DNA from: Sulfurimonas sp.
GTDB taxonomy: Bacteria > Campylobacterota > Campylobacteria > Campylobacterales > Sulfurimonadaceae
Direction: 5' to 3'
Assembly (NCBI GenBank): GCA_027064515.1
Contig: JAMOPL010000115.1
Coordinates: 1 to 36,679, forward strand
Length of the DNA: 36,679 nt
Shown piece by piece: positions 21,827 to 35,451 of this stretch. The first letter of the stretch is position 1. Each line of letters opens with the position of its first letter. A program made the position numbers and the translations under genes. The notes beneath the pieces are model-generated. The model was not told where the DNA came from, did not search any database, and saw only the letters and a list, made by a program, of their open reading frames with translations.

Positions 21827-23551
21827 ATGAATAATAGTATAGTTAGGAGAATTTTTACATCAGCAATTTGGATATTGTTAGCTTTTATTATTACGATTAT
21901 AAGTTTTTTTTATTACAATTTTAGTGTAGATAAATATGTTGAATTAGAAGTTGAAAATAGTAAAGCATTAAATAAAAGTATTAATAATATTATTTCATTA
22001 AATGAAAGTACCTTAAAAAATTCAGCATCTTTTACACAAATATTAGAAAAGAGTAGTACTAATGTTGAAGAGTTTGAATATATAGGTAGTATATCTACTC
22101 AGCTTATAGAGTTGGCAGCATTTCCAAATGATGTAGCAAAAAGAAAAATGATACTCTCTACTCTTCAAAATTGGAATGAAAAAGTTGTTAAATTGAATGG
22201 TGTAATGAAACAATTTTATCCAGATATTAAAGATGTTATAGAAGTTCTTAAAACATCTAGTGACCCTGATGATATAGTAATGACACAAGAGATTCTAAAT
22301 GATATTTTTGGTGTAATGGTTGAACAAGCTCTTGATGATAGTGATACAGCATTAAACAAAACAGAACTTTTAAAGAAAAATATTATAAATATAAAACAAT
22401 TATTGATTGTAAATCAGAACAATGCGAAAAAAGCTTCTATTGCTAGAGAAAAATCTTCAGAAAATAAAAAAATAGCTTTAATTGTTATAAATGTTATGGC
22501 TTTTTTAACTTTAATAGGAACAATAATCCTTTTGTTGATAGTGAAAAAATTAAAGCAAGGTTTTGGAAATATTGCGAATGAATTAAATAATATGACAGCA
22601 AAAGATGGGTTTATAGATTTTACACAAGTTAAAAGTGCAGATATAGATAAAGATGAGATAAGTTTTATTCAGTATAGTTTGTATAATGTTATACAAGATG
22701 TTAAAACATTACTACAAGAGATAGATGATATTTCAACTAAAAATGCTCATTTGTCCCAGACTATGGCAGATTCTTCGCTAAGTATAAATGAACATATAGG
22801 AAAAGAATCTATACTTATAGAAGAAACAAATAAAAAAAGTGAACAGGTGAAAATCTCACTTGATACTTCAGTTGAAGATGCTAGACAAACAAAAGACAAT
22901 ATTTTAAATGCTGGTGAGAGTTTATCTACAACAAAAGAAGATATTGAAAGTTTTATTGTAGATTTAAAACAAAGTATGGAAGGTGAAGTTGAATTAGCTA
23001 CTAATTTAAGAGAATTAAATTCTAATGCTAATGAGATAAAAAATGTTTTAAGTATTATAGATGATATTTCAGACCAAACAAATTTACTCGCATTAAATGC
23101 TGCTATTGAAGCAGCAAGAGCAGGGGAACATGGTAGAGGATTCGCAGTTGTTGCTGATGAAGTTAGACAACTTGCTGAAAGAACACAAAAATCATTAACA
23201 GATATATACTCATCTGTAAATGTAATGGTAGATTCTATTGGCAACATAAGTGTAGCTATGGATAAAGATGTTAAATTTATAGAAAAACTAGCTAATAATA
23301 GTGAGGATGTTGAAAATGGAGTAGAAATAGTAAGTAACAATATGCAGTTAACGGCAGATACAGCTAAATCAAGCCTTGATGTTACTATTGAAGTTTCAAA
23401 AGATGCTCAAGAAATTATATCAAATATAAATGTAATTTCTAAATTATCAATAGAAAACAAAGAATCTATAAACTCTATTGTTTCTGATATTACTGAAATA
23501 TCATCATTATCAAGTACATTAAAAAGTCATTTAGATAAATTTAAAATTTAA
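21827..23551 (+). CDS. methyl-accepting chemotaxis protein
   Basis: A 574-residue chemoreceptor. It has TM1 at about residues 12-31, a periplasmic, entirely helical sensor (about 32-213; four-helix-bundle type, rich in Asn/Ser/Lys), TM2 at about 217-239 ([20 protein letters not shown]), and a divergent HAMP-like linker. The long coiled-coil signalling hairpin has at its tip the invariant [19 protein letters not shown] and [20 protein letters not shown] (about 415-465). No C-terminal CheR/CheB pentapeptide tether is present (it ends SHLDKFKI). It is followed at 16 bases by a secreted small protein and then by a DUF3373 barrel, and is probably transcribed with them. Confidence 0.95.
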
Positions 23552-26310: not shown

Positions 26311-27081
26311 ATGAATATTTTAATTACAGAAGATGCAAAAGAGACTAGAGAAGTACTAAAAAATATTATTAAATTTAGTATTGATGATACTATAAATATT
26401 TTTGAGGCTGAAAATGGTGTTGAAGCATTAGATATCATTAAAGATAATCATATTGATATTTTACTTACAGATATTATGATGCCAACTATGGACGGTTTTG
26501 AACTAATAACAAAGGTGAAAAACACTGAATCTTCAAAAAATATATTTATAGCAGCAATTACTGGATTAAGTGGTGAGGAGCAGGTGAAAAAAGTTTTTTC
26601 TTGTGGAGCTGATTATTATATATCAAAACCTATTCAGCAAGATGATATTATCGCAAGATTAAAACTGATATATAAACTAGTAACAAAAGAGGAAGATGAA
26701 AGTCCTGAATTGGTTAGAGATACTTTCAACCCTTTTGAAGTACCAGTAATGATGAACTACTATACTATATTTACTATCTTGCAAGAGGATGATTTATACC
26801 AAATAATTCATCATCTAGTTGCTTTATATCCAGATGTAGATAAAATGATGTTAAAAGATTTTATAACATTACTTTTAAAAACTTACGAATCCTTAGATGA
26901 TGAGTTTGATGGAGCATTTGAGATGATGCTTGAATCTTCTTTTGAAGAGGTTTTTTTAAGTTGTACGAATCTTAACTTTATAGAAGCGTTAAAATATTAT
27001 AAAGATTCAATGCCACAGGCTTATGAAGTAAAATATATGTCAAATAGTGTAACAATAAAAATCCCAACAAAAGGTGTATAA
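26311..27081 (+). CDS. response regulator with unrecognised output domain (RR-X1)
   Basis: A 256-residue response regulator. The receiver domain (about 1-122) has the acidic pocket E7/D8, phosphoacceptor D54 in LLTDIMMPTMDG, T84 in AAITGLSGEEQ and K106 in ISKPIQ. The output part (about 138-252) is not a DNA-binding, GGDEF or HD domain that I recognise. It matches in layout residues 145-255 of the next protein: an aromatic strand (NYYTIFTI), a helix with MMLKDFITLLLKTYE, and a last strand VTIKIP. It may be a degenerate ATPase-type fold. It is the first gene of the eight-gene signalling operon. Its receiver aligns without gaps to that of the next gene, pointing to tandem duplication. Confidence 0.88.
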   Translation: MNILITEDAKETREVLKNIIKFSIDDTINIFEAENGVEALDIIKDNHIDILLTDIMMPTMDGFELITKVKNTESSKNIFIAAITGLSGEEQVKKVFSCGADYYISKPIQQDDIIARLKLIYKLVTKEEDESPELVRDTFNPFEVPVMMNYYTIFTILQEDDLYQIIHHLVALYPDVDKMMLKDFITLLLKTYESLDDEFDGAFEMMLESSFEEVFLSCTNLNFIEALKYYKDSMPQAYEVKYMSNSVTIKIPTKGV

Positions 27082-27082
27082 A

Positions 27083-28321
27083 ATGAAAATTTTAATAGTA
27101 GATGATGAAAAGGAAACAAGAGAAAGTTTAAGAAATATAATTAAAGTAAAAGTAAATAGTTCTTATGAGATAGCTGAAGCTGAAAATGGTTTAGAAGCTT
27201 TAGGTGTTGTGGAGAGTTTTCAACCTGATATTGTTTTAACTGATGTTTTGATGCCAAAAATGGATGGGATTCGTTTTACGGCACTTCTGAAATCACAGCC
27301 TGAAACAAAACATATTTTTGTTGCAGCTATTACTGGCTTAAGTGGTGAAGAACAGATAGAGAAAATCTATGCAAGTGGTGTTGATTTTTATATTGCAAAA
27401 CCATTTCAACTAGATGATATTGTTGCGAGGTTAAAAGTAATAACATCATTGATTTTTAATAAAAGTGATATACCAACCTCAAAGCCATCTGTTATTCATA
27501 ATAATTTTAATGATACGCAGATAAAAAGATATTTTGTAACTTTTTCTATTGCTAAAGAGAATGATATATTTTTGATTTTTGATTATTTTTCAAAACAAGA
27601 TATTCAATATAACTCTATAATGTTAAAAGATTTGATGGTTATTTTGGTAAAAGCATATAGAAAAGCTAAAATAGAAGATAAAGTATTTGATTTAGTTGTA
27701 GAAGAATCTGAAACATATTTTTATTTGACTATTAAAGAAAAATCATTTATAACTATTATGGAAAAGTTGGTAAAAAATAATTTTACAAGATTTAATTATT
27801 CTAGTAGTAGTGATATATTTTCATTCAGAATTGATATAGCATCTTTTATTGATAGTGTAAAAGATAATTCTGTTGAAGAGGTAGTTGAAGAGATTGAAGT
27901 TACATCAGCGACAGAGTTGATGATTATCGCTTCTGATGATATACTAGATTATGTAAATGAGCTAAACTATGATCTTCAAGAGTATAAATCATTAGCTAGA
28001 AACAACAATAGATATGATAAAGAATCTTATCTATTATTGGTACAGTTACTTAATCAATATATAAGACTATTTAAAAAAGTTCCAAATTTTGATAGGGTTT
28101 CAATTGCATTAGAGAGTGTTGTATTGGTTATAGAAAAAGCAGGTCTTAAATCTTTTAGTGATAGTGAATATATGGATATAAATAATCATATGAAAGAGTT
28201 AAATGATAATATTAATAATTGGATTCAGTGTGTAATTATTAATCAAGATAGACATGATGTTCATGATATTGATTATATTATTATGGATAGTTGTAGATTA
28301 ATAGAAAAAGATTTTAGTTAA
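27083..28321 (+). CDS. long response regulator, shared X domain plus helical C-terminus (RR-X2)
   Basis: The ATG at 27083 is preferred, with AAGGTG (27071-27076) upstream; a GTG at 27074 is open in frame. The protein has 412 residues. The receiver (about 1-122) has D7/D8, phosphoacceptor D54 (LTDVLMPKMDG), T84 and the KP pair near 106. The second domain (about 145-255) resembles that of RR-X1: YFVTFSIAKENDIF, then IMLKDLMVILVKAYR, then FSFRID. A third, all-helical part (about 265-412) has YLLLVQLLNQYIRLFKKVP and NQDRHDVHDIDYI; whether one of its His residues is a phosphotransfer site is unknown. It follows RR-X1 by one base. Confidence 0.85.
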   Translation: MKILIVDDEKETRESLRNIIKVKVNSSYEIAEAENGLEALGVVESFQPDIVLTDVLMPKMDGIRFTALLKSQPETKHIFVAAITGLSGEEQIEKIYASGVDFYIAKPFQLDDIVARLKVITSLIFNKSDIPTSKPSVIHNNFNDTQIKRYFVTFSIAKENDIFLIFDYFSKQDIQYNSIMLKDLMVILVKAYRKAKIEDKVFDLVVEESETYFYLTIKEKSFITIMEKLVKNNFTRFNYSSSSDIFSFRIDIASFIDSVKDNSVEEVVEEIEVTSATELMIIASDDILDYVNELNYDLQEYKSLARNNNRYDKESYLLLVQLLNQYIRLFKKVPNFDRVSIALESVVLVIEKAGLKSFSDSEYMDINNHMKELNDNINNWIQCVIINQDRHDVHDIDYIIMDSCRLIEKDFS

Positions 28322-28331
28322 AGGGTCAGTT

Positions 28332-28724
28332 ATGAAAATTGTATTTATAGATGATAGTACGATTGTTTTAGAAACATTGAAGTCATTGGTGCAAGAGATG
28401 ATAGATTCAGGGATGATAAAGTGTGACTTTTTTAATGATTCCTTTAGTGTAAAAGAGATGATAGAGAATGAAACATTAGAATATGATTTGATGTTTGTAG
28501 ATATAAATATGCCAAATATAACAGGTTATGAATTAGCCATAAGTGCTAAAAAACTTGAAAAATATAAGTATAAACCTATAATAGCAATTACATCTGTATA
28601 TAATGATGAAGCAAAAGAGTTAGGTAAGAAAGCTGGCATAGATGGTTGGTTTATTAAGTCAATTACTCAAGATTCTTTACAGGCGTCTATTGTAGAAACA
28701 ATTAAGAAATTATATAAAGATTAG
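28332..28724 (+). CDS. stand-alone receiver domain protein
   Basis: A 130-residue single-domain response regulator, like CheY or a phosphorelay shuttle. It has acidic residues D7/D8, phosphoacceptor D57 in FVDINMPN, a Thr in IIAITSVYND and a Lys in GWFIKSITQ. The normally conserved Pro after this Lys is Ser, which may change the beta5-alpha5 face. There is no output domain, so it probably acts by protein contact or passes phosphate on. It lies ten bases after RR-X2 and 11 before cheB. Confidence 0.9.
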   Translation: MKIVFIDDSTIVLETLKSLVQEMIDSGMIKCDFFNDSFSVKEMIENETLEYDLMFVDINMPNITGYELAISAKKLEKYKYKPIIAITSVYNDEAKELGKKAGIDGWFIKSITQDSLQASIVETIKKLYKD

Positions 28725-28735
28725 GGTATAGATAG

Positions 28736-29812
28736 ATGAAAAAAGTAAAATTATTTATAGTGGATGACTCAGCGATTGTTCGTCAAACTATATCTAAATT
28801 AGTTGAGAATGAAGCAGATATAGAACTTCTTGGTGTTGCGGCTGATCCAATTTTTGCTATGCAAAAATTTAAAACAACAGGTCTTCCTGATGTTTTAATT
28901 CTTGATATAGAGATGCCAAGAATGGATGGCATAACATTTCTAAAACAGATAATGAGTGAAAACCCAATTGCTACTATAATATGTTCAGGTGTAGCAAAAT
29001 CAGGTAGTTCTAAGGCGATAGAGGCTCTTCAACTAGGAGCAGTAGAACTGATAGAAAAGCCAAATATGCAAACAAAAGCATTTTTAGAACACTCTAAAGA
29101 GAGTTTGATAAGATCTATAAAATCAGCATCTATATCTAGGTTAAAAAAACTTCCTAAAAGTAGTCTAAAGAGTAAAGAAAAAAGTTTTAATAAAATTGAA
29201 AGTACAGATGATGTGATAGTACAAAAAAGATCTAATGTAGCAGTAGGTGGTAAAAGAGTGATAGCTATTGGATCTTCTACTGGTGGTGTTCAGGTAATAG
29301 AAAAGATTCTATCATCACTTCCGAAAACAACAGTTCCTATTATGATAACACAGCATATGCCAGCAGGCTTTACAGCATCTTTGGCAAAAAGACTAGATAA
29401 TATTTGTAAAATAAATGTAAAACAAGCTGAAGATGGTGAAGAGTTAAAATCCTCTACTGCATATATCGCTCCAGGTGATACTCATATGATAATTCAAAGA
29501 GTTGGATTAAAATATATTATAAATATTAAAAATGGTCCAAAAGTTTCTCATCATCGTCCAAGTGTGGATGTTCTTTTCCGTTCATTTGCTAATGAAGTGG
29601 GTAAAAGTGGTACAGGTATTATTCTAACTGGTATGGGAAGTGATGGTTCTCATGGTTTAAAAGAGATGTTTGATATAGGTGCAAAAACTTATGCTCAGGA
29701 TGAAAAAAGTTGTGTTGTTTATGGTATGCCTAATGAAGCAGTAAAATTAGGTGGTGTTATCAAATCTCTAAGTATAGATAAAATAATAGAGATAATCATA
29801 TCTACAAGATAG
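28736..29812 (+). CDS. cheB: CheB-type receiver-methylesterase
   Basis: CheB removes methyl groups (and deamidates Gln) from chemoreceptor helices, resetting adaptation, when its receiver is phosphorylated. The 358 residues are complete. The receiver (about 1-120) has D10/D11 and D57 (LDIEMPRMDG). A linker (about 130-170) leads to a methylesterase domain (about 172-355) with the full triad: S181 in IGSSTGGVQ, H207 in MITQHMPAGF and D303 in LTGMGSDGSHG. No cheR, cheA or cheW is nearby, so it may act on a distant receptor set (an MCP gene is at 21827) or have a non-chemotaxis target. As I recall, some Campylobacter CheB proteins lack the receiver; this one has it. Confidence 0.93.
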   Translation: MKKVKLFIVDDSAIVRQTISKLVENEADIELLGVAADPIFAMQKFKTTGLPDVLILDIEMPRMDGITFLKQIMSENPIATIICSGVAKSGSSKAIEALQLGAVELIEKPNMQTKAFLEHSKESLIRSIKSASISRLKKLPKSSLKSKEKSFNKIESTDDVIVQKRSNVAVGGKRVIAIGSSTGGVQVIEKILSSLPKTTVPIMITQHMPAGFTASLAKRLDNICKINVKQAEDGEELKSSTAYIAPGDTHMIIQRVGLKYIINIKNGPKVSHHRPSVDVLFRSFANEVGKSGTGIILTGMGSDGSHGLKEMFDIGAKTYAQDEKSCVVYGMPNEAVKLGGVIKSLSIDKIIEIIISTR

Positions 29813-29838
29813 TAAAAAAATTAGTTTAGGATTTAAAA

Positions 29839-31521
29839 ATGTATGATACAAAAAAATTAAAAGAGATTTGTTCTAAGTTTTCTGTACTGATAGCAGATGA
29901 TGAAGAGGGAGCAAGAACCCAGATTTATAATATACTGATACTATTTTTTCCTACTGTATATTCTGCTAAAGATGGTCAAGAAGCATTCGATATTTATAAA
30001 GAGAAGAGACCAAATTTAATTATTACAGATTTGACAATGCCTAAAATGACAGGTTTTGAACTGATTGATGCAGTTCGTACTATTAATAGTAAACAAAAAA
30101 TAATTGTGATGTCAGCACATACTGAAACAGATGTTATTGTAAAAGCTATTAAAAGTAGTGTAGATGGATATATCTTAAAACCGATAGAAGCTGTTCAGAT
30201 GTTTGAAGCTTTAGAAAAGACAGCAAATGCTTTAAAAATAGAAGAAGAGAATGTTGAATATCAAAAAGGTTTAGAGGGAAAAGTCAATAAACAGGCAGAA
30301 CAACTTATAAAACAATTAGAGTGTGATTCCTTAACAAAACTGCCAAATAAAGCAAAGTTAAATATAGACTTTAAAGCTAAAAACTATGATGAACTTATCT
30401 TATTAAATATAGATAATTTTTCGCAGATAAATAGTACTTACGGGTATAGTGATGGAGATATGTTACTAAAGCATATAGCTGAATTTTTGCTATCAATAGC
30501 ACCTAATTCTCTTTATAGGGGTAATGGTGATGAATTTTTTATTTTACTAGAATCTTCTACTCCAAAAAAATCTTTAGCTTTGGCAGAATCTATAAAAGAA
30601 AAAGTTTACAATAAAAGATTTCTACTCAATTCAACCTCTGTTCGTATTACATTTTCTATGGGGATAGTTTCTATTGATTCAGAAGAAGAAGAACTTCCTT
30701 ATGCTAAAGCAAATATAGCTATTTCAGATATGAGAAAGTTACATAAAAATGTGATAGGACATTATCATAAACATTCTCAAACAGAAAACTATCAACAACA
30801 GATGCATGAGTGGGCAAACAAAGCAAAACTTGCATTAGATTTTGATTTACTTGTTCCTTATTATCAAGCAATTGTAAATATAAAAACTGGAAAAATAGAA
30901 AAGTACGAGTGTTTAGCAAGAATCATAGAACAAGAAAAACCTATCAGTCCATTCTTTTTTATAGAACCTGCTCGTATCGCTGGAATGGTTACCGATATTA
31001 CAAGACGGATGATTTTAAAAGCATTTGAAATATTTAAAGATACAGAGATAGAATTTTCTATAAATATTACAGATGATGATTTCAAAGAGGAGTATCTGAT
31101 TGATTATCTTCAAGAGAAGTGTAAAATATTTAGCATAAATCCAAACCAAGTAGTTTTAGAGGTGTTAGAAAATATTAGTGATTATGATGCTACTCATGCT
31201 ATTAAACAGATGGATAAGTTAAAAGCTATTGGCTTTCAAATAGCGATAGATGATTTTGGAGCAGAGAGTTCTAATTTTGCAAGAGTTCAAAAACTGCAAG
31301 TAGATTATATAAAAATAGATGGTGGTTTTATAAAAGATATAGCACAAAATTATAATAGTCTTATTATTGCAAAAACTATTGTTTATTATGCAAAAAATAG
31401 TGGGCTTAAAACAATTGCAGAGTTTGTTCATAATGAAGAAACATACAATATAGTTAAAGAATTAGGTATAGATTATGCACAAGGTTATTATTTTTCTGAG
31501 CCATTAAAGGATATTGAATGA
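29839..31521 (+). CDS. receiver-GGDEF-EAL protein (c-di-GMP turnover)
   Basis: A 560-residue three-domain regulator. The receiver (about 1-125) has D20/D21 and D64 (ITDLTMPKMTG). A short coiled-coil linker (about 130-160) is followed by a GGDEF domain (about 160-310) whose signature reads N-G-D-E-F (N229 for the first Gly), so cyclase activity is doubtful. The EAL domain (about 325-560) has E357 in the signature (E-C-L), NITDDDF, LEVLEN, the metal-binding IDDFG, YIKID, a late IAEFVHNEET, and AQGYYFSEP. Most catalytic residues of an active c-di-GMP phosphodiesterase are present. Phosphorylation by the operon's kinases likely controls c-di-GMP breakdown. It overlaps the next gene by four bases (ATGA). 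Confidence 0.92.
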   Translation: MYDTKKLKEICSKFSVLIADDEEGARTQIYNILILFFPTVYSAKDGQEAFDIYKEKRPNLIITDLTMPKMTGFELIDAVRTINSKQKIIVMSAHTETDVIVKAIKSSVDGYILKPIEAVQMFEALEKTANALKIEEENVEYQKGLEGKVNKQAEQLIKQLECDSLTKLPNKAKLNIDFKAKNYDELILLNIDNFSQINSTYGYSDGDMLLKHIAEFLLSIAPNSLYRGNGDEFFILLESSTPKKSLALAESIKEKVYNKRFLLNSTSVRITFSMGIVSIDSEEEELPYAKANIAISDMRKLHKNVIGHYHKHSQTENYQQQMHEWANKAKLALDFDLLVPYYQAIVNIKTGKIEKYECLARIIEQEKPISPFFFIEPARIAGMVTDITRRMILKAFEIFKDTEIEFSINITDDDFKEEYLIDYLQEKCKIFSINPNQVVLEVLENISDYDATHAIKQMDKLKAIGFQIAIDDFGAESSNFARVQKLQVDYIKIDGGFIKDIAQNYNSLIIAKTIVYYAKNSGLKTIAEFVHNEETYNIVKELGIDYAQGYYFSEPLKDIE

Positions 31522-31946
31522 ATTTAGCAGATAAATTAAAAAAAGAAACTAAAGATTTAAGAGTTATGTATGTTGAGGATGAGGATGATACTCGCAGACA
31601 GATAGCACAAATTTTAAGTATCTTTTTTAAAGAGGTGGTTATAGGTGTTAATGGTTTAGAAGCTTTAGAAATCTATAAGCTAGATGGTGAAAATATAGAT
31701 TTAGTTATGACAGATTTAACTATGCCAAAAATGGATGGTTTGACAATGGTTAAAAATATAAGAAAAATAAATCATGATCAACATATAATAATATTAACTG
31801 CACATAATAGTAGTGCAAATCTTATGGAAACAATAGATTTACAACTTGATGGTTTTTTACTAAAACCAATAAAAATGGAAAAAATGGTTGATTTACTTTT
31901 AAAAGTAACAAAAATAATTAATCTTGAAAAAAATTATTTAAATTAA
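31518..31946 (+). CDS. stand-alone receiver domain protein
   Basis: A 142-residue single-domain response regulator with an N-terminal extension of about 14 residues. Acidic pocket E20/D21, phosphoacceptor D66 in VMTDLTMPKMDG, Thr in IIILTAHNSS and Lys-Pro in FLLKPIKM are all present. Its D-loop and the IFFK/FFP segment resemble the receiver of the preceding GGDEF-EAL protein more than those of RR-X1/X2, suggesting a second duplication set. It starts in the last four bases of the preceding gene and ends ten bases before the FIST kinase, its likely cognate. Confidence 0.92.
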   Translation: MNLADKLKKETKDLRVMYVEDEDDTRRQIAQILSIFFKEVVIGVNGLEALEIYKLDGENIDLVMTDLTMPKMDGLTMVKNIRKINHDQHIIILTAHNSSANLMETIDLQLDGFLLKPIKMEKMVDLLLKVTKIINLEKNYLN

Positions 31947-31956
31947 TTGGAAAAAA

Positions 31957-33957
31957 ATGTATACATTAAATTACAAATATAAAAATAGAGATGAAAACTC
32001 TTTAATTGATTGGTTAAGTGAAAATGATTTAGCTTCAAAAAAAGAGTGTTTGGTTCAATTGTTTTTCGGGATTTTAAAAGAGGATGAGATTCAAAATATA
32101 ATCTCTCTTTTAGTTGATAAACTACCTGAATCTCATATAATTGGTTCAACAACAGATGGTGAAATTGTAGATGATATTGTAGAAACAAATTCCATTGTTA
32201 TTAGTATTACTGTTTTTGAAAAAAGTACAATAAGTTCAACAAGTGTTAATTATGATACACACTCTTATGATATGGGATATAAAATAGCTAAAGAGTTAGA
32301 TTCTGATGATGTTAAAGCTATGATTCTATTTACCACTGGTCTATCTATCAATGGTGAGAGTTTTTTGGATGGTGTTAGAAAAATATCCAAAGGTAATTAT
32401 ATAGTTTCAGGTGGTATGGCTGGTGACAATGGTGCTTTTAAAAAAACTTATATATCACACCAAGGTAAAGTTATCTCAAAAGGTGCTGTTGGAGTTGTTT
32501 TAAAGGGAGATGAGTTAAATGTAAAAAACAATTATAAGTTTGGTTGGGATGCAGTTGGCTTACCTATGAAAATCACTAAAAGTATTGAAAATAGAGTTTA
32601 TGAGCTAGATAATAAACCAATAATTGATATATATACTAAGTATTTTAGTAAAGAGATTTCAGATTTACTACCAGTTATAGGTGTTGAGATTCCATTAATA
32701 GTAGATAGAGATGGACGAAAAATAGCTCGTGCTTGTATAAATAAGTTTGATGATGGGTCTTTACTATTTGGTGGAAATCTTAAGCAAGGGGAAGAGGTTC
32801 GATTTGGTTTAGGTGGTGTAGATAGTATTTTAAAAGATAGTGAAAGAATATGTAGTAGTATTAGTAAAACATGTAATCCTGAAACAGTTTTTGTTTATTC
32901 CTGTATGGCTAGAAGAAGATTACTAGAATCTCAAGCTTCTTTAGAGTTAAAAGTAATTTCTAGTAAAACTGCTGTTAGTGGGTTTTTCACTTATGGGGAG
33001 TTTTACTCTGATGAGAAAAATAATTATCTTTTTAATGAAACAATGACAATTTTAGCATTAAGTGAAAAAGTATTTGATACTAGATCAGAACCTGTAATTG
33101 AAGAGAATGTTAAAATAGATATAGAAAGCAATAAACTGATGTATGCTGTTACACATATGACAAATGTGATAGCAAGAGAGTGGCAAGAGAGAGTTGATGA
33201 GGAGATAGCTAAAAATAAAGAGCAAGAGAGACAAAGTTTTCAAAAAAATAAATTGGCTCAAATGGGTGAAATGATAGGGATGATCGCTCATCAATGGAGA
33301 CAACCATTAAATGCTATCAGTGCAACTGGAATTAACTTATCGTTACTTTCAAGTATGAAAATGTTAGAAGATTCTAAAGTTCAAGAGAGTAGTGTGTTTA
33401 TTCAAGACCAGTGCCAGAAAATGTCAACAACTATTGATACTTTTATGAATTTTGTCAGACCATCACAAGAATCAAAAAAGTTTTATCTGAATCATACAGT
33501 TGAAGCTATAATGCAGATAATGGGGACACAACTAGCAAATCACGATATAGAAGTAAATATAGATATGAAAGATGAAAATATATCTATTATTGGATATGAA
33601 GACCTACTAGAGCAGGTGATAATAAATATACTTTCAAATGCTAGAGATGCTTTTTCTGAACTTGAAAAAGATGGAAAATTTATAAAAATAATAATTGATT
33701 CTGATAGTGAATATTTTATATTAATTATACAAGATAATGCTGGTGGGATTCCAACAGAGATAAGTGATAAAATATTTAATCCATATTTTACAACAAAAGA
33801 GCAAGGTAAAGGTACTGGAATCGGTCTTTATATGAGTATGGATATAATTAAAAAAAGTTTTGGTGGGGATTTGGTTTACAATCCTATCAAAGATGGTAGT
33901 GAATTTAAAATAGTTATTGGAAAAGATACAAAAACAGAAAAAGTTAAAATGGTTTAG
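31957..33957 (+). CDS. FIST-domain sensor histidine kinase
   Basis: A 666-residue cytoplasmic kinase with no membrane segment. Residues about 25-235 are FIST_N (LPESHIIGSTTDGEIVDD, FTTGLSINGESFLDGVRK, SGGMAGDNGAF) and about 235-385 FIST_C (VIGVEIPLIVDRDGR, VFVYSCMARRRLL, SGFFTYGEF). FIST is a proposed small-ligand sensor, perhaps for amino acids. A helix (about 395-430) leads to the HisKA with H445 in MIAHQWRQPLNAIS, and an HATPase (about 540-660) with an N-box (ILSNARDAF), DNAGGIP and GKGTGIGLYMS. It is followed without any gap by the second kinase, whose catalytic half is almost the same. Confidence 0.94.
   Translation: MYTLNYKYKNRDENSLIDWLSENDLASKKECLVQLFFGILKEDEIQNIISLLVDKLPESHIIGSTTDGEIVDDIVETNSIVISITVFEKSTISSTSVNYDTHSYDMGYKIAKELDSDDVKAMILFTTGLSINGESFLDGVRKISKGNYIVSGGMAGDNGAFKKTYISHQGKVISKGAVGVVLKGDELNVKNNYKFGWDAVGLPMKITKSIENRVYELDNKPIIDIYTKYFSKEISDLLPVIGVEIPLIVDRDGRKIARACINKFDDGSLLFGGNLKQGEEVRFGLGGVDSILKDSERICSSISKTCNPETVFVYSCMARRRLLESQASLELKVISSKTAVSGFFTYGEFYSDEKNNYLFNETMTILALSEKVFDTRSEPVIEENVKIDIESNKLMYAVTHMTNVIAREWQERVDEEIAKNKEQERQSFQKNKLAQMGEMIGMIAHQWRQPLNAISATGINLSLLSSMKMLEDSKVQESSVFIQDQCQKMSTTIDTFMNFVRPSQESKKFYLNHTVEAIMQIMGTQLANHDIEVNIDMKDENISIIGYEDLLEQVIINILSNARDAFSELEKDGKFIKIIIDSDSEYFILIIQDNAGGIPTEISDKIFNPYFTTKEQGKGTGIGLYMSMDIIKKSFGGDLVYNPIKDGSEFKIVIGKDTKTEKVKMV
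33733..33870 (+). repeat. duplicated kinase-core segment, copy 1
   Basis: These 138 bases, coding the G1-to-G2 part of the first kinase's ATPase domain, align without gaps to 35263-35400 in the next gene. By eye about 14 of 138 bases differ (roughly 90% identity), far more alike than the two genes' sensor halves. Confidence 0.85.
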
Positions 33958-35451
33958 ATGTATAAGATGATTAAAAATCTAAGAAATAGCTATAAATTAA
34001 CAAATAAGATAGCAAGTATTTTTTTATTAGTAGTATTTTTTAGTTCTATTATTAATTCCTATATTAGTTATTTTACAAATAAAACTATCCTTTATAAAAG
34101 TATAGATAAAAAGTTAGAAAGTGCAGTTTTAACAACAAATTTATTTTTAGATAAAAAATTTCATGATAGAGCAATTTCAAAGGAATCTATATCTAAGGAT
34201 GAGAATCTAATAAATACTCTAAATTTATCAGAACTAGCTAATAGTGTTGGTGTAGAGTATATTTATACTATGGTTCAAAGAGATGATAAAATATATTTTA
34301 CATCATCAAGTGCAACTAAAAAAGAGTTGAAAAATAATGAAATCACTGATTATTTTGAATATTATGGTGAGGCTACACCATTGTTGAAAAATCTATTAAA
34401 AAATAATAAAACAATGTATGAAGAATCAACAGATAGATGGGGTACATTTAGAACAGTATTTATACCATTTAGCACAAAAAATGGTAATAAATATATAGTT
34501 GGAGCAGATGTAAAAATAGATTATATTCAAAATATATTAAATAAATATATTCAAAAAATATTTATAACACAGATTTTAATAATATTTTTACTTATAATTT
34601 TAGGTTATTTTTTTATGAAAATAACTAAAAAAGAGTTTTCGGAACTAAAAGAACAATTAGAAACAGAGATAGATATAAAAACACAAGAGTTAGAAACTTT
34701 AAATAATTCAATAGAAAAAAAGGTTGAAGAGGAACTTAAAAAAAGTGTAGAAAAAGAAGCACAACTAATTCAACAGTCAAAACTAGCTCAGATGGGAGAT
34801 ATGTTAAGTATGATAGCACATCAATGGAGACAACCATTAAATGCTATTAGTGCCTCTGCAATAAATATATCTTTGTTATCTAGTATGAAAACATTAGAGG
34901 ATTCTAAACTTCAAGATAGCAGTGAATTTATACAAAATCAATGTCAAAAAATGTCTGAAATAATAGATACATTTATGAATTTTGTAAAGCCATCTAAAGA
35001 ATCTAAAAAGTTTAAGGTTATACATTCTATAAATGAGATTCTTACACTGATGGGTACACAGCTAAATAATAAAAATATTGAAGTAAGTGTAACAGAGATA
35101 GATAAGAATCTTGAGGTAGTAGGGCAAGAAGATTTATTGGAACAAGTTATAGTGAATCTTTTATCTAATTCAGGAGATGCATTAGATGAGCTTAATATTG
35201 AAAATAAATTTATTAATATAAGTGTAGAATTAATTAATGAAATGGTAAGTATAAAAATAGAAGATAATGGTGGTGGAATTCCAAAAGAGATAAGTGATAA
35301 AATATTTAACCCATATTTTACAACAAAAGAGCAGGGTAAAGGTACTGGTATAGGTCTTTATATGAGTAGAGATATTATGAAAAAAAGTTTTAATGGTGAT
35401 TTGAAATATAGTGATACTGATGTGGGTAGTAATTTTGAAATAGTTTTTTGA
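33958..35451 (+). CDS. membrane sensor histidine kinase
   Basis: A 497-residue kinase whose ATG directly follows the stop of the FIST kinase (a start at 33967 is also possible). TM1 is at about 19-40, and a periplasmic sensor at about 41-197 resembles a single-Cache domain (VEYIYTMVQRDDKIYFTSSS, GEATPLLKNLL, RTVFIPFSTKNGNKYIVGAD). TM2 is at about 199-221, followed by a coiled coil (about 225-270). HisKA has H288 in MIAHQWRQPLNAIS and HATPase has LLSNSGDALDEL, DNGGGIP and GKGTGIGLYMS. It presumably adds an extracellular or periplasmic signal to the same relay as the cytoplasmic FIST kinase. It is the last gene of the operon. Confidence 0.94.
   Translation: MYKMIKNLRNSYKLTNKIASIFLLVVFFSSIINSYISYFTNKTILYKSIDKKLESAVLTTNLFLDKKFHDRAISKESISKDENLINTLNLSELANSVGVEYIYTMVQRDDKIYFTSSSATKKELKNNEITDYFEYYGEATPLLKNLLKNNKTMYEESTDRWGTFRTVFIPFSTKNGNKYIVGADVKIDYIQNILNKYIQKIFITQILIIFLLIILGYFFMKITKKEFSELKEQLETEIDIKTQELETLNNSIEKKVEEELKKSVEKEAQLIQQSKLAQMGDMLSMIAHQWRQPLNAISASAINISLLSSMKTLEDSKLQDSSEFIQNQCQKMSEIIDTFMNFVKPSKESKKFKVIHSINEILTLMGTQLNNKNIEVSVTEIDKNLEVVGQEDLLEQVIVNLLSNSGDALDELNIENKFINISVELINEMVSIKIEDNGGGIPKEISDKIFNPYFTTKEQGKGTGIGLYMSRDIMKKSFNGDLKYSDTDVGSNFEIVF
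35263..35400 (+). repeat. duplicated kinase-core segment, copy 2
   Basis: Partner of 33733-33870, same frame. Most differences are at third codon positions or conservative, so the copies look like a recent duplication or gene conversion under coding constraint. Confidence 0.85.

Follow-up and report, generated by a model that had tools for sequence, protein, structure and literature searches.

A CheB and c-di-GMP operon of Sulfurimonas, probably one arm of a chemosensory locus that has been split

The window analysed here, the whole 36,679-nucleotide stretch under study, is contig C115 of a 1.85-Mb Sulfurimonas MAG (G000; 80% complete, 166 contigs). At 26311-35451 it carries eight plus-strand genes, g1 to g8, in which a complete CheB and a c-di-GMP protein accompany two histidine kinases; within this interval Pfam detected no CheA, CheW or MCP. 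Is this CheB phosphorylated by the kinases of its own operon, along a CheA-independent route as the first-pass annotation had proposed, or does the operon belong to a chemosensory system whose other genes lie elsewhere?

Gene content of the operon

ORF calling and Pfam confirmed the eight genes and their domains, and both phospho-acceptor histidines are as originally described. The presence of all eight genes on one strand with intergenic gaps of -4 to 26 bases also supported their likely co-transcription. From its ATG at 27083, g2 lies 1 base after g1 (an alternative GTG at 27074 would give an 8-base overlap), and the following gaps are 10 (g2-g3), 11 (g3-g4), 26 (g4-g5), -4 (g5-g6), 10 (g6-g7) and 0 bases (g7-g8). 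No terminator-like hairpin was seen in any intergenic gap, and promoter and terminator scans, which performed at chance level, have no bearing on the single-transcript claim. An MCP gene (21827-23551) is located outside the operon, about 2.8 kb upstream, with a DUF3373/porin-like gene and a divergently oriented methyltransferase gene in between. Downstream, an AAA-ATPase-like gene (PF09820; 35531-36679) runs off the contig; at this place G142, a genome of the same family, has more regulators and a che arm.

REC domains were recognized in g1 to g6. The first gene (26311-27081) encodes a 256-aa protein with a receiver (D54) followed by a region that we called X1, and g2 (27083-28321; 412 aa from ATG 27083), with receiver, X1 and X2, is paralogous to g1 and has an additional helical domain at its C-terminus. 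Stand-alone receivers are encoded by g3 (28332-28724), which is CheY-like, and by g6 (31518-31946), whose kin are the receiver domains of the REC-EAL proteins encoded in the same loci (51% identity to G249). Orthologues of g3 are 79% (G142) and 54% (G175) identical. Within chemosensory clusters, relatives of g3 occupy the position between CheR and HK/CheD, and matches to its receiver (90-96 bits) adjoin CheR in L148, L149, L152 and L155. The kinases are a cytoplasmic FIST-FIST_C histidine kinase (g7, 31957-33957; H445) and a membrane histidine kinase (g8, 33958-35451; H288), both with the phospho-acceptor within an HQWRQPL box. Pfam recognized FIST, FIST_C and HATPase_c in g7, whose HisKA score (22.7) was under the cut-off of 26.9, and HisKA and HATPase_c in g8, in which two hydrophobic segments lie on either side of a probably periplasmic region with no domain assignment. 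The kinase core of g8 is about 65% identical to a PAS-GAF kinase of G142. The term phosphorelay, applied to this operon at first, could not be upheld in its strict sense, since Pfam found neither an Hpt domain nor a hybrid kinase (HK-REC) in any of the eight proteins.

The CheB encoded by g4 (28736-29812) combines a receiver with a methylesterase domain carrying the catalytic Ser/His/Asp motifs (GSSTGG at 179, QHMP at 206 and GMGSDG at 299) and scored 210.8 bits with CheB_methylest and 396 bits with NF001965 (cut-off 293). In the receiver-GGDEF-EAL protein g5 (29839-31521), the GGDEF motif is degenerate (NGDEF), and a motif reading of the alignment found all EAL metal and catalytic residues: E(CL), N, E..E, DD, K, E and Q. 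Orthologues likewise combine a degenerate GGDEF with intact EAL residues. Because of this combination, g5 is predicted to act as a c-di-GMP phosphodiesterase, which is its probable function.

X1 (~115 aa; 26692-27078 in g1) and X2 (~135 aa; X1 and X2 of g2 together at 27464-28318) had no Pfam match in the post-receiver regions of g1 and g2. Chemosensory clusters of the family repeatedly encode REC-X1-X2 proteins, as a rule next to CheB, and X1/X2 response regulators were seen at L045-L051, L149, L159, L161, L165 and L167. The DIHYLDsSL-like motif of X2 is near-invariant, with an eroded version in g2; its Asp-[Ile/Val]-His core is conserved in most aligned sequences, has no Hpt match, and makes the histidine a candidate phospho-site. 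We also observed proteins of 280-302 aa with an N-terminal X1 and no receiver (L186:10004-10885, L189:3103-4011, L191:9200-10102 and similar), which adjoin GGDEF/EAL genes in several genomes. Kinship of X1 with GHKL/HATPase domains was not supported by profile comparison (probability 5.7), no convincing match to X1-X2 was found among PDB sequences, and a contig scan of the genome with g2 returned receiver-domain matches only. AlphaFold modelling of g2 from two sequences gave a weak structure (pLDDT 58.6), which was set aside, its PDB matches being driven by the receiver. We infer that X1 and X2 serve chemosensory response regulators as accessory domains for output or interaction.

Orthologous loci in relatives

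An X1-domain alignment was searched against 228 genomes of the family and 399 sampled from the order. Strong matches were limited to 4 of the 228 (G000, which is the window's own genome, G142, G174 and G175), and outside the family a clear match was obtained in one genome, G249, which is near-complete and belongs to a different family of the same order; this five-genome group was traced via X1, so that relatives devoid of X1 may be missed. Orthologues of g1 are 76% (G142), 79% (G174), 49% (G175) and 43% (G249) identical, and those of g2 are 62% (G142), 68% (G174, a fragment) and 35% identical over their full length (G249).

The family search with g2 recovered one near-identical operon, that of G142, in which the genes follow the same order as in the window (g1, g2, g3, g4, an extra HK, g5, g6, g7). 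This conserved order shows that the arrangement is not a product of chance. CheR and CheA searches located both genes within 20 kb in G142: on the opposite strand, a convergent cluster encoding STAS, CheA, MCP, CheW, CheV and CheR abuts the last gene of the operon and, in the region covered, has no cheB of its own. The G142 CheA is 61% identical to that of G249. In the latter, Pfam-confirmed domains on contig C15 follow the order g2, MCP, MCP, CheW, CheV, CheR, g1, CheB and REC-GGDEF-EAL on the minus strand, with a divergent plus-strand set consisting of a 99-aa gene, CheA, REC-EAL and FIST-HK. Orthologues of five of the eight window genes (g1, g2, g4, g5 and g7) thus share this locus with CheA, two MCPs, CheW, CheV and CheR. 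In G175 we recovered MCP, CheW, CheV, CheR, g1, g3, HK, CheD, CheB and REC-GGDEF-EAL, with orthologues of g1, g3, g4 and g5; CheA is out of view because the contig begins inside the MCP gene. G174 carries g1-g2, CheB-g5, and a CheA fragment (70% identical) with a STAS-like gene, on three contigs. A gene of 98-99 aa was observed directly 5' of this cheA type (L168:6807-7103, L197:516-815, L212:740-1036), with a weak STAS-domain match in G142.

The CheBs of the window, G142, G174, G175 and G249 formed a single clade (100/100), and the CheRs of G249, G142 and G175 another (97/99); since these clades match, CheB and CheR track each other. The next-nearest CheBs (53-58%) likewise come from chemosensory clusters; most of these encode CheR, and CheA is present too where the contig extends far enough. 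Comparison of loci and trees thus showed that the operon genes are orthologous to genes sharing or adjoining CheA-MCP-CheW-CheV-CheR loci, and that the CheB and CheR lineages match. Far from never occurring together, the genes that had been joined in one system are found together in relatives, and their company points to CheA. The proposed functional link between CheB and c-di-GMP gained support from its recurrence in G142, G174, G175 and G249. The claim of a system devoid of CheA, CheW and CheR fared differently: it is not borne out by G249, by G175 as far as its contig extends, or by G142, where the operon adjoins a CheA cluster without its own cheB. Because the orthologous loci hold or adjoin che genes and the CheB and CheR clades match, we consider it probable that the operon is the CheB and output arm of a chemosensory system that forms one locus in relatives and is split here.

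Alternative readings and proposed pathway

The rest of the MAG contains several CheW matches, two CheAs (C66, C164) and three CheR domains (C155, C157, C28), so that all three proteins exist in the cell. Neither of the CheAs nor the stand-alone CheR on C157 is of the matching lineage, and a CheA/CheR arm of the G142/G249 type was not found in this assembly; since the MAG is only 80% complete and in 166 contigs, this is weak evidence, and a true loss of the arm is possible. If the arm were absent, the FIST kinase, the membrane kinase or both could phosphorylate CheB and g5 directly, setting methylation and c-di-GMP together. The tight operon of CheB with two kinases would agree with this, as would the AAA-ATPase-like gene and contig end found in place of a che cluster, but matching che genes are present in each of the four relatives that share this CheB lineage (CheA in G142, G174 and G249; CheR in G142, G175 and G249), and we regard such direct control as improbable. 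A broader version, in which the CheA arm was lost or uncoupled and the FIST-type and membrane kinases took over CheB and the phosphodiesterase, also seems unlikely; if true, orthodox two-component input would set the methylation of another array, such as the CheB-less array of C157.

That contig (L053:1-5259) encodes CheW, CheV, CheR, a ParA-like protein and products of 300 aa and at least 429 aa. It has no cheB at the place where one is present in G062, G072 and G053, in the last of these behind the 300-aa gene. The only other CheB domain in the MAG is a CheB-CheR fusion on C28, and g4 might therefore serve the C157-type cluster in trans, its cheB having been lost from the expected place. The C157 CheR, however, groups with G053, apart from the CheR lineage of G142, G175 and G249 that accompanies this CheB, and the contig is short in an incomplete assembly; service in trans is thus not likely either. 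Finally, the eight genes could be independent two-component genes that merely adjoin. Of 151 family genomes, 108 encode FIST-domain proteins, in many different settings, and orthologues of g7 (61-62% in G125, G149, G144 and G142, 52% in G072, 43% in G249) accompany chemosensory genes in G249 and lack a nearby CheB in G072, G125, G144 and G149; the FIST kinase therefore behaves as a separable input. Chance adjacency is nevertheless very hard to credit against the conserved order in G142 and the membership shared with G249 across an order-level divide. In G149 and G144 (L163:5224-5784, L164:7-594), the FIST-HK orthologue adjoins a truncated g5 reduced to the receiver and the start of GGDEF, which suggests decay of the locus.

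The reading that we prefer therefore remains that of a CheB and output arm separated from its CheA arm. We infer the wiring, phosphotransfer partners not being readable from sequence. Receptors would control CheA, which most likely phosphorylates CheB (a step predicted by homology) and the output receivers; CheB would then reset receptor methylation against CheR. Phosphorylation of g3 and g5 by CheA would make c-di-GMP hydrolysis by g5 follow receptor state, the g5 receiver being the likely link to c-di-GMP. The FIST kinase may provide a second input into the same receiver set (g1, g2, g6 and possibly g5), and g8, added in this lineage, may feed other signals into it. The CheA-free reading most likely arose because a single arm of the split locus was in view in a draft assembly, and a missing CheA on such a contig need not mean a CheA-free pathway.

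Relation to known systems

The locus is a rare, apparently undescribed variant of chemosensory system: it joins output through a probable c-di-GMP phosphodiesterase to input from a FIST (NosP-like) kinase, is rare in its order, and no description of chemosensory control combined with c-di-GMP hydrolysis and a FIST kinase was found in the portion of the open-access literature covered. Since intact, rearranged and decayed versions coexist, it offers a test case for the merging of chemosensory and ordinary two-component pathways. The Wsp system of Pseudomonas is a chemosensory array with c-di-GMP output, in which WspF is the CheB and WspR a REC-GGDEF protein. Our locus resembles it in combining such an array, CheB and a c-di-GMP output, and differs in its REC-X proteins, its FIST kinase and its REC-GGDEF-EAL protein; no WspR-type cyclase was seen, g5 having NGDEF and an attached, intact EAL (a probable phosphodiesterase) in place of an active GG[D/E]EF.

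The accessory (non-F3) clusters of Campylobacterota are likewise extra CheA-CheW-CheB-CheR systems of Sulfurimonas-type genomes, whose clusters include one or two cognate receptors; FIST kinases, REC-X1-X2 proteins and REC-GGDEF-EAL proteins are not mentioned in the available part of their description (PMC9321776). In the NosP/NosK/NosR two-component operon for NO, a FIST sensor and a histidine kinase are encoded together with a response regulator related to c-di-GMP (PMC12570481), as in the window; in g7, however, FIST is fused to the kinase, scores 69.1 bits with the NosP NCBIfam equivalog model against a cut-off of 450, and is embedded in a chemosensory locus.
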